DNA from: BD2-11 clade cluster bacterium bin43
GTDB lineage: Bacteria; Gemmatimonadota; Gemmatimonadetes; Longimicrobiales; Gaopeijiaceae
DNA: 64,000 nt
Direction: 5' to 3'
NCBI GenBank assembly: GCA_002238605.1
Contig: MPMR01000018.1
Coordinates: 1-64,000 of the forward strand
Shown here: piece by piece, positions 6,227-10,262 of the stretch
How the letters are laid out: every line of letters starts with the position of its first letter
How positions within the stretch are numbered: position 1 is the stretch's first letter
Notes under the pieces: generated by a model
The model's input: the letters and a program-made list of their open reading frames with translations, nothing else
Told to the model about the DNA's origin: nothing
Database searches by the model: none
Translations under genes and position numbers: made by a program

Positions 6227-7372
6227 TTGGCTGATCGTCCATCTTCATCCTCCGCGGGAAAACCCGTGGATCTCCGGTCACGCGCCTGGGTGGAGGTCGA
6301 TGCCGCGGCGTTGCGCGCCAACCTTGCGCACATCCGGCAGGCTGCCCGGGCCGCCGCCGTCGTCCCGATGATCAAGGCAAACGCGTACGGCCTGGGCGTG
6401 GGCGACGCGGTCGCGGTTCTTGAGGCCGAGGAGCCGGACGGCTACGGGGTGGCGACGGTGGAGGAGGGGCTGGAGCTGCGGGCGCTCGGGGTCGGGCGCC
6501 GGGTGCTGGTGATGACCCCGGCCCCCGCTTCCTCCCTCCCGGCGGCCGTGGATGGCGGCCTGACTCTGTGTTTTTCCGACCTGGACAGCCTGCGGGCCCT
6601 GGCCGCGGAAGCCGCCCGCCGCGGGCGCCGCGCCACCTTCCACATGGAAGTGGACACGGGGATGGGCAGGGCCGGGCTCGACTGGCGCTCGGCGGAGACC
6701 TGGGGAAGGGAAGTGGCGGCGCTGGCCGCTCCCCCGCTCCGCTGGGGCGGATGCTACACCCACTTCCACTCGGCCGACGAAGACGCCGGCACCATCGACC
6801 GGCAGTGGGCGCGCCTGCAGGACGTCGTCGACCGCCTGTCCCTGCCCGCGGATGCGTGGGTCCACGCCTGCAACTCAGCGGGGGTCCTGCGCCGCCCGCA
6901 GTACGCCGGCAGTGCGGTACGTCCCGGCATCTTCCTGTTCGGAGGGCGCTCCGCCCTCGACCTGCCCCGGCCGGCTCCGGTAGTGGCCGTGCGCGCCCGC
7001 ATCACCCTGGTGCGGGACGTCCTCGCCGGCAGCTCCCTGGGCTACGGCGCCACCCATGTCGCGCGGGCGCCCGAGCGCTGGGCCACCGTCGCGATCGGGT
7101 ACGGCGACGGCCTGCCGCGCGCTCTGGGAAACCGCGGGCATGCCCTGGTACGCGGGCGGCGGGTTCCCCTGGTCGGAAGGATCTCCATGGACGTCACGGT
7201 GGTAGAGATCTCGCGCGTCCCCGACGCGCGCGCCGGCGATATCGTTACCTTTATCGGTTCCGACCGGGATGAGGAGATCACGGTCGAAGAGGTGGCGGAT
7301 CAGGCCGGCACCATCAACTACGAGGTCCTCACCGGCCTGACCGGCCGACTTCCGCGGATCTGGCAAGCATGA
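6227..7372 (+). CDS. alr: Alanine racemase
   Basis: PLP-dependent fold-type III enzyme interconverting L- and D-alanine for peptidoglycan. At 381 residues it has family length. The PLP lysine lies in MIKANAYGLG near residue 50; HMEVDTGMGRAG near 140 is the substrate-binding segment; SLGYGATH near 270 contains the second catalytic tyrosine; AIGYGDGLPR and GRISMDVT follow. The start is a TTG at 6227 with CCAGGA a few bases upstream; no ATG fits better. Its stop overlaps the start of the downstream deaminase (ATGA), so alr heads a tightly packed run of genes to 12084. Confidence 0.96.
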   Translation: MADRPSSSSAGKPVDLRSRAWVEVDAAALRANLAHIRQAARAAAVVPMIKANAYGLGVGDAVAVLEAEEPDGYGVATVEEGLELRALGVGRRVLVMTPAPASSLPAAVDGGLTLCFSDLDSLRALAAEAARRGRRATFHMEVDTGMGRAGLDWRSAETWGREVAALAAPPLRWGGCYTHFHSADEDAGTIDRQWARLQDVVDRLSLPADAWVHACNSAGVLRRPQYAGSAVRPGIFLFGGRSALDLPRPAPVVAVRARITLVRDVLAGSSLGYGATHVARAPERWATVAIGYGDGLPRALGNRGHALVRGRRVPLVGRISMDVTVVEISRVPDARAGDIVTFIGSDRDEEITVEEVADQAGTINYEVLTGLTGRLPRIWQA

Positions 7373-9045
7373 CGGACGCTTTCGAGCGACTTCTGAGTGA
7401 TGCGCGCGCCGCACGCGAGCGCGCCTATGCTCCCTATTCCGGGTTCCAGGTCGGCGCCGCACTGGAGACGGCGGATGGCGCGGTGTTCTCGGGATGCAAC
7501 GTGGAGAACGCCTCCTACGGCCTCACCCTGTGCGCCGAGCGCTCGGCGCTGGCCGCGGCCGTGGCTGGTGGACACCGGTCGTTCACCCGAATCGCCGTCA
7601 GCACCTCGTCCGGTCCGCCCGCTTCGCCGTGCGGACTTTGCCGCCAGGCCCTCGCCGAATTTGCGCCCGGACTCCCGGTCCGCTCCGAGTCCCCCGAGGG
7701 AACCGCCGACTGGAGCCTGGCCACGCTCCTGCCCGCGCCCTTCCGGCTGAACCGCGCCGCCCGCACGCTCGCCGCGGTGGCCGCGCTCCTCGCCGGTGCC
7801 TGCGGATACGACACGCCCACCGCGGTCGAAGGGCTGACCTTTCCCGTGACGGTGGTCACCTCGGAGGTCTATCTCTCCCACGACGAGTTCGCCCGCGGCG
7901 TTCAGGTGTTCGGCGGCTTCGGCCGGGCGTCGGACGTGGCCTTTCCCCTGGTCGCCAGCGAGTTCGGCGAAGACGGCCTCGAGGCGCGCACGCTGGTGCG
8001 GTTCGGTCCCATACCGCGCTCCGCGAGCATTCGCGACACTGCCGGCACCACGGTGACCGACCCGAACCTGACGCTGATCGGCGGGCGCGCGGTCCTCCGT
8101 TTCGATACCCTCGCCGCCCCCTCCGGACCGGTGACGTTGTCCGCATCGCTCATCAGCGAAAGATGGCATCCGTCCTCCGCCACCTTCGTCCACGCCGTGG
8201 ACACCCTCGGGGAACAGGTCCCCTGGGCCAACGCCGGCGGCGGGGACGACACGCCGATCGCCACGGCGGTGTGGGATCCGGCGGAATCCGACTCCGTTTT
8301 TTTCGCCATCGACACCCTGGTCATCGAGGCGTGGGACACCGACGACGAAGCTCGCGGCATGCTTGTGCGGATGGTCACGCCCGGCCAGCGCGTAAAGGTG
8401 CGTTCGGCCAATCTGGTGATGGACGCGCTACCGTCGATCCGGTCGGACACGATGGTCACCACGGACACCTTTGCCGAACAACTGACCTTCGTCTACGACC
8501 CGGTGCCCTCGCTGCCCGAGGGCGCGCTGCAGATCGGCGGCGCCCCCGCGTGGCGCACCGTCTTCGAGGTGCAATTGCCGTCCTCGCTGCGCATCCGCGA
8601 CGACTCCTGTCCCTCGGGCGCGTGCACCCTGCCACTCAGCGCCGACGGCATTACCCAGGCGGCGCTCATCCTGACCCCGGGTTCCGCCGACGCGGCGCTG
8701 CGCCCCACCGATACGCTCTTCGTCGACGCCCGCCCGATTCCGTCGCCCGAGCACCTGCCGCGCGCGCCTCTGGGCAACTCGATCCAGGTCCCCGTCCTGC
8801 AGGTGCCCCCGGAGATCTTCGCCGGCGAGGAGGGGCGCGTGCTCGAGATACCCATCACCAGCTTCGTCAAGGACCTGGCGCGGGGCATCACCGAAGACAG
8901 CGTTCCGGCGCCCAACACGCTGGCGCTGCTGGCCGCCATCGAACCGCAGAGCTTCGAGCTGATGCGGTTCCTGGGGCCCGGCTCCAGTTCGCCGCCGCTG
9001 CTGCGCATCCTCATCAGCCAGCTTTCCGGGATGAGCATGAGATGA
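7369..9045 (+). CDS. cdd: Cytidine deaminase read in frame into a lipoprotein (apparent fusion)
   Basis: Residues 1-125 are a complete tetrameric-type cytidine deaminase. Zinc ligands are C55 in CAERSA (with catalytic E57) and C88/C91 in PCGLC, and the segment ends with the typical LLPAPF. No stop follows. The same frame continues into a hydrophobic stretch RTLAAVAALLAGAC with a lipobox (C145), then about 410 residues of an unrecognised beta-rich extracytoplasmic lipoprotein. Normally these would be two proteins. The only start-like codon at the junction is CTG at 7747, and a TGA sits one base out of frame at 7748-7750. Either a genuine fusion, a CTG-initiated lipoprotein, or a lost stop or sequence error. 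The deaminase call is firm; the lipoprotein function is unknown. Confidence 0.85.
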   Translation: MTDAFERLLSDARAARERAYAPYSGFQVGAALETADGAVFSGCNVENASYGLTLCAERSALAAAVAGGHRSFTRIAVSTSSGPPASPCGLCRQALAEFAPGLPVRSESPEGTADWSLATLLPAPFRLNRAARTLAAVAALLAGACGYDTPTAVEGLTFPVTVVTSEVYLSHDEFARGVQVFGGFGRASDVAFPLVASEFGEDGLEARTLVRFGPIPRSASIRDTAGTTVTDPNLTLIGGRAVLRFDTLAAPSGPVTLSASLISERWHPSSATFVHAVDTLGEQVPWANAGGGDDTPIATAVWDPAESDSVFFAIDTLVIEAWDTDDEARGMLVRMVTPGQRVKVRSANLVMDALPSIRSDTMVTTDTFAEQLTFVYDPVPSLPEGALQIGGAPAWRTVFEVQLPSSLRIRDDSCPSGACTLPLSADGITQAALILTPGSADAALRPTDTLFVDARPIPSPEHLPRAPLGNSIQVPVLQVPPEIFAGEEGRVLEIPITSFVKDLARGITEDSVPAPNTLALLAAIEPQSFELMRFLGPGSSSPPLLRILISQLSGMSMR

Positions 9046-10262
9046 ACACCCGTGCCCGTTCCCGCATCGCCTGCCGGTTGGCGGCCGCGGCTCCCTTCGC
9101 GGCCGCCACCCTCGCGCTCCTCGCCTTCGCAGCACCCCGGCCGCTGCTCGCCCAGTCGCTCATCGGCAGCCAGGGCCTGGGCATTCCCCTGGAGGCGCTC
9201 GACGGGCGATCGCGCGCGCTCGGCTCGGTGGGGGTCGGTCTCTTCGGCGGCGCCGTGCTTCCCACGGACCCGGCCCGCGCCAGCCGGATCACCGTCCCCA
9301 GCGTCTCCGTCACCATCCAGCCCAGCCGCGGCGCGGCCACCATCGGCGACGAGATCATCCCGATCGAAGGCACCCGCTTCCCCTTGCTGGCGTTGTCCTA
9401 CCCGGTGCGGAACTACGGGGTCGCCACCTTGTCCTACGGGGGCCTCCTGGAACAGAACTGGAAGGCCGAACGGACCCTTCGTCTCGCCCAGGAGCAGGAC
9501 TCGATCGACGTCGCCGACACCTACGAGTCCGATGGCAGCGTGGGCGCGGCCCGCATCGGCTTCGCGCGCGCCCTGTCCGGAGGCCTTTCGGTCGCGGCGA
9601 ACCTCGGTTTCCACACCGGGACCCAGGTGCGGAGCTTCTCGCGCACCATCGGCGTCGTCGAGGACGAGGAACAGGAGTCCAGCGACCGTTTCCGGGAGCG
9701 CGGGCGCTGGGAAATGACGGGCACCACCTTCGGGCTGGGCGCCATGTGGGATTTTCGCGATTTCCTGCGCATCTCCGGCAGCCTGACCTGGTCCGGCGAC
9801 CTGCGGGCGACCCCTGTGGGGCAGACCGAGGGCGGGGAAGCCCGCTTCGAGCTCCCCACGGAATTCCGCGTCGGCGCGAGCGCGATGCTCACCCCCGTGG
9901 TGGCGGCCACCTTCGGTTTCGGGCGTTCCAACTGGACACCGAGCGAATCGGGCGCGGGCGCGTCCGCGCGGGGCGCCGTCACCACTTTCGGAGGAGGGAT
10001 GGAGTGGTCGGGGATGGGCCTGTTCGGCCGCAGCCTCCCGGTCCGCGTCGGCTACCGCAGCGCCGGACTGCCTTTCTCCATCGACGCCTCGACCCCCACC
10101 GAGAGCGGTTTCGCCGCCGGCTTCGGCTGGAACCTGATCGAGACCGAAACCCTCATCATCGCCGCCTTCGACTTCTCGTACGAGAGAGGCACGCGCGCGA
10201 CGGACTCGATTTCGGAGTCTTTCTCGCGCTACACCTTCTCCTTCCGGGCATCGAGTTTCTGA
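9042..10262 (+). CDS. Predicted outer-membrane beta-barrel protein
   Basis: Has 406 residues with an N-terminal signal peptide (about 1-38, cleavage near PLLAQS). Long runs of alternating hydrophobic residues and glycines then end in a C-terminal Phe (FSFRASSF), as expected of an outer-membrane beta barrel. The general look is FadL/PorV-like, with about 12-14 possible strands, but no family signature allows a specific name. The ATG overlaps the lipoprotein stop (ATGA) and its own stop overlaps miaB. Linkage to the preceding lipoprotein suggests the two form an outer-membrane pair; that is inference. Confidence 0.75.
   Translation: MNTRARSRIACRLAAAAPFAAATLALLAFAAPRPLLAQSLIGSQGLGIPLEALDGRSRALGSVGVGLFGGAVLPTDPARASRITVPSVSVTIQPSRGAATIGDEIIPIEGTRFPLLALSYPVRNYGVATLSYGGLLEQNWKAERTLRLAQEQDSIDVADTYESDGSVGAARIGFARALSGGLSVAANLGFHTGTQVRSFSRTIGVVEDEEQESSDRFRERGRWEMTGTTFGLGAMWDFRDFLRISGSLTWSGDLRATPVGQTEGGEARFELPTEFRVGASAMLTPVVAATFGFGRSNWTPSESGAGASARGAVTTFGGGMEWSGMGLFGRSLPVRVGYRSAGLPFSIDASTPTESGFAAGFGWNLIETETLIIAAFDFSYERGTRATDSISESFSRYTFSFRASSF

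Follow-up and report, generated by a model that had tools for sequence, protein, structure and literature searches.

A cytidine deaminase fused in frame to a BamH-like lipoprotein throughout a genus of Gemmatimonadota: a probable two-protein precursor

In a genus of Gemmatimonadota, mostly uncultured, the cytidine deaminase (Cdd) gene continues in frame into the gene for a lipoprotein whose modelled fold resembles BamH, and the product of this genus-specific fusion is probably a precursor of two proteins, divided at an internal signal peptidase II (SPase II) site. In the window (the whole stretch of 64,000 nucleotides analysed here, from a genome of 4.47 Mb in 65 contigs), direct reading of the sequence gives an open frame from the ATG at 7369 to the TGA at 9043-9045, 558 codons with no internal stop, and a ribosome starting at the cdd ATG meets no stop before 9043. 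Along the frame, the Cdd domain is followed by RLNRAARTLAAVAALLAGA-C145 and then by 413 more residues, the predicted extracytoplasmic domain. The signal thus starts within the chain, at residue 127, rather than at its N-terminus, unless CTG127 is itself a start. A preliminary description of the locus had reported exactly this, namely, a Cdd running in frame into a lipoprotein without a stop, through a signal-like segment with the lipobox LAGAC at C145 and on into a long domain, and both the reading and the positions hold. The features are as follows.

6227..7372, forward strand: alanine racemase gene alr (PF01168/PF00842), the upstream neighbour, whose TGA overlaps the cdd ATG (ATGA)
7369..9045, forward strand: fused cdd-bamH-like open reading frame, 558 aa, from direct reading, kept in 11/11 genomes of the genus
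7369..7746, forward strand: cytidine deaminase domain, codons 1-126, with C55, E57, C88 and C91 intact (TIGR01354, zinc-site residues, solved Cdd folds)
7747..7800, forward strand: codons 127-144, the n-region and h-region of a putative internal lipoprotein signal, with a hydrophobic h-region in 11/11 and a modelled helix
7747..7749, forward strand: CTG codon 127, by junction comparison the sole candidate internal start common to 11/11 at a usable position
7748..7750, forward strand: out-of-frame TGA, probably left over from an NTGA stop/start overlap, absent in one species (G005)
7801..7803, forward strand: lipobox Cys145, predicted lipidation and SPase II site, invariant in 11/11 and throughout the family alignment (C19 of A1)
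7801..9042, forward strand: BamH-like lipoprotein domain, residues 145-558 (structure matches, weak DNRLRE HMM match)
9042..10262, forward strand: BamG-like (FadL-fold) outer-membrane protein (fold matches), overlapping the fused frame (ATGA)

The fusion is natural and genus-wide. The same uninterrupted frame of 1677 nt, free of indels and of any change in length, is present in all 11 species of the genus that were examined, with about 90% amino acid identity and about 10% divergence in DNA. It is also found in nine named public assemblies, which come from several isolate series and from both SPAdes-type and MEGAHIT-type assemblers. A single base change could create or abolish the fusion, and the genomes look like draft assemblies, but an artefact of sequencing or assembly can be given virtually no credence because 11 genomes this far apart, along with independent assemblies, carry an identical frame of identical length. 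No uninterrupted match across both halves was detected outside the genus, either among the 121 genomes (40 genera) of the family or in an order-wide search (154 genomes, E <= 1e-60). In those relatives outside the genus that were inspected closely, cdd lies beside a separate lipoprotein gene, and the stop of the former and the start of the latter are either separate or overlapping, often as NTGA (4 nt) or by 8 nt. The preliminary description had singled out relatives with a stop plus ATG at this point as evidence against a real fusion; there are none inside the genus, and a stop with a separate start occurs only outside it.

Judging from the aligned coding sequences, purifying selection acts on both halves, the mean dN/dS being 0.11 for Cdd and 0.17 for the lipoprotein, with 0.43 for codons 126-144 between them. 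The N-terminal half is a cytidine deaminase of the TIGR01354 type, with activity predicted from the sequence: TIGR01354 matches residues 7-127 with 129.9 bits (cut-off 113.65) and exceeds the cut-off in 11/11 genomes, in each of which the fused gene is the only match to this model, and PF00383 matches residues 6-99. The zinc ligands and the catalytic Glu (C55, E57, C88, C91) are invariant in all 11 species, in agreement with the complete domain and intact zinc ligands described previously. Solved Cdds, such as those of B. subtilis and mouse, match the model of the fused chain at Z about 21, with 122-127 residues aligned, so that the full domain, the zinc site and the fold are all shared with the tetrameric-type enzyme. 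The latter, however, usually stands alone at about 130 aa, whereas here its C-terminus runs on into the lipoprotein signal.

For the lipoprotein half, Pfam and PDB sequence searches with the lipoprotein profile returned nothing significant and no PDB sequence match, 9 of 17 relatives give a weak match to the DNRLRE model, and DUF4270 (PF14092), considered as a possible family, was rejected because none of the 39 relatives matched it while the control was positive. There is only one match to the lipoprotein part in each genome of the genus. The AlphaFold2 model of the fused chain (42 alignment rows, pLDDT 87.9, pTM 0.68) comprises the Cdd fold, a helix spanning residues 129-144 and a domain rich in beta structure. 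In alignment A3, a few signal residues of the lipoprotein rows are wrongly set in Cdd columns. The fold search used the whole fused model, in which the Cdd half dominates the matches; after the deaminases, the best structure matches are chains of three Bacteroidota BAM complexes, 9hjm_G (Z 15.8, rmsd 7.3 over 347 residues), 9n2d_C (Z 14.2, rmsd 4.5 over 338 residues) and 9his_G (Z 13.4), along with 8wab_A (Z 12.7). We read these chains as BamH because the 9HIS entry is described as BamHIJK and because 8WAB, a DNRLRE-type binding module, is named as the closest homologue of BamH in PMC12611786. Thus, by modelled fold and gene neighbourhood, we read the lipoprotein as resembling BamH, the identity of the chains being taken from entries and papers. 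With BamH of Bacteroidota (9HJM, 9N2D, 9HIS), it would share a lipoprotein with the 8WAB/DNRLRE-type carbohydrate-binding-module fold, at Z 13-16 over about 340 residues, and a gene adjoining a bamG-like gene, as Bt BamH2 adjoins BamG2; it differs in having only about 10% sequence identity, in forming the C-terminal half of a Cdd fusion and in belonging to the phylum Gemmatimonadota.

The gene that follows the fusion folds, in its model (pLDDT 84.9), like BamG, including the extended N-terminus. Its top three matches are 9hjm_F (Z 38.1), 9n2d_B (Z 38.0) and 9hiv_F (Z 37.8), and the BamG chains align from residue 33-37 and FadL from about 47, such that the alignment reaches an N-terminal extension absent in FadL. 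The order cdd, bamH-like, bamG-like recurs across related Gemmatimonadota, where the unfused locus has the same three genes with short overlaps and differs in that cdd has a stop, and the lipoprotein gene a start, of its own. PMC12611786, in which BamG and BamH are recorded from six of seven additional FCB phyla, does not name this arrangement in the portion available. Seven Omp85-family matches are encoded in the window genome (contigs C3, C38, C18, C40, C28, C14 and C36), the strong ones at C3:45164-46114 and C38:203996-204988. As a side observation, the bamG frame is free of stops from 7494 to 10262 and so reaches back across most of the fused gene, likely because of the high G+C content.

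We propose the following origin and fate of the chain. Ancestrally, the stop of cdd most likely overlapped the start of the lipoprotein gene, as is seen in relatives, and an indel in the short Cdd tail would have joined the two frames, leaving CTGA at the old NTGA overlap. A single chain of 558 aa would now be translated, its Cdd part folding in the cytosol and segment 127-144, oriented with the N-terminus inside, serving as an internal Sec/lipoprotein signal. Cys145 would be lipidated by Lgt, and Lsp would cut just before it; the mature BamH-like lipoprotein would then reach the outer membrane and act there together with BamG and BamA, and Cdd would retain a short membrane tail or be freed once this tail is degraded. 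That a cytosolic enzyme has become the obligatory N-terminal half of a BAM lipoprotein, split by SPase II at an internal lipobox and fixed genus-wide, is the reading towards which we lean, somewhat less firmly than towards the two-protein precursor as such.

Several features of the junction are consistent with such processing. Cys145 is invariant in 11/11 fused species, and the lipobox of the window, LAGA-C, fits the small residue at -1. None of the 11 replacements in the h-region is polar or charged, against 30% expected (P about 0.02), and its hydrophobicity resembles that of the signals of unfused relatives. Both Lgt and Lsp are encoded in the genome (PF01790 and PF01252, over cut-off). In the solved complexes, the triacylated N-terminal Cys of BamH sits packed between BamA and BamG, according to PMC12611786 and PMC12578637, and the chain, therefore, presumably must be cut at Cys145. 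On account of the encoded Lgt and Lsp, the invariant Cys145, the hydrophobic h-region and the free N-terminus that BamH must have, release by SPase II, as envisaged in the preliminary description, is the best-supported fate of the product of a gene fusion that is itself real and genus-wide. Counting against the proposal, four of the 11 fused species (L002, L005, L006 and L009) have Thr at -1 of the lipobox (codon 144), a departure from the usual lipobox; the h-region, short and rich in Ala, makes a weak internal membrane segment, with positive summed Hessa values; and the identification of BamH does not come from sequence. Furthermore, long folded cytosolic extensions usually hinder Sec export. 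On a neighbour-joining tree of the gene itself, the four species with -1 Thr are not grouped as a single clade, a pattern that may reflect recombination or parallel change.

The two proteins could also arise by internal initiation at CTG127, read as Met to give MNRAARTLAAVAALLAGA-C, a normal signal peptide, with the read-through fusion as a by-product supplying Cdd. The CTG is placed exactly where an N-terminal signal should begin, and in relatives whose start and stop overlap as NTGA, the distance to the Cys is similar. The codon is also invariant in 11/11, but this is weak evidence, and was rejected as proof of a start, because 27 of the 50 invariant Leu columns of the frame likewise have an invariant codon. 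No Shine-Dalgarno pairing precedes CTG127 in any of the 11 species (about +1.4 kcal/mol, whereas the true starts of the neighbouring gene and of the unfused lipoproteins average -5.8 and -6.1 kcal/mol, respectively), and there is no cdd stop for translational coupling. In most species, the mRNA is structured at this site, the median share of codons with less structure being 0.85 here but 0.11 and 0.20 at genuine starts (P about 2e-4, uncorrected for shared ancestry). A start at CTG127, the alternative raised in the preliminary description, is therefore disfavoured and appears unlikely, and given the encoded Lgt and Lsp, we favour, with some confidence, cleavage by Lsp.

A stable tether, in which the uncleaved signal anchors a single chain with Cdd on the cytosolic side and the lipoprotein domain outside, seems still less plausible. 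The -1 Thr of four species could slow Lsp, but it is also found in one of the 33 unfused relatives; Cys145 is invariant, the h-region is rather short and weakly hydrophobic for a permanent anchor, and a BamH-like function requires that the lipidated N-terminus be free at the outer surface. A programmed or frequent frameshift near codon 126, ending Cdd at the +1 TGA (7748-7750) to yield separate proteins, is very improbable, although in 10/11 species the Cdd domain ends right at this TGA: G005 lacks it (CTG GCC), and an internal start for the lipoprotein would still be required. The CTG and the TGA had been placed correctly in the preliminary description, but the latter is not conserved, and a function for it was rejected on the strength of its loss in G005; it is probably a relic of the NTGA stop/start overlap.

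Precedent for division of a bacterial chain at an internal signal exists in the fbcH cytochrome b/c1 precursor of Bradyrhizobium, which is cut into two working proteins. There, the cleavage is of the signal peptidase I type and both parts are membrane or extracytoplasmic proteins, whereas the fusion described here would involve SPase II and a cytosolic enzyme. Our literature search on internal lipoprotein signals and on Cdd-lipoprotein fusions found no relevant paper. If the chain is indeed cut, it amounts to a natural test of how deep inside a protein a lipoprotein signal works, when preceded by 126 residues of folded cytosolic enzyme, in a protein resembling a subunit that is essential in Flavobacterium. 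The locus also places a BamH/BamG-like gene pair, with a recognisable neighbourhood, in Gemmatimonadota, which supports the published view that this type of BAM extends beyond Bacteroidota. For annotation, such a fusion can conceal a BAM gene behind the label cytidine deaminase. The public records of the fused gene bear Gemmatimonadetes or Gammaproteobacteria MAG titles, and four records titled Gammaproteobacteria bacterium (L051, L052, L055 and L058) carry genus-level homologues of this Gemmatimonadota locus; these titles look misassigned.
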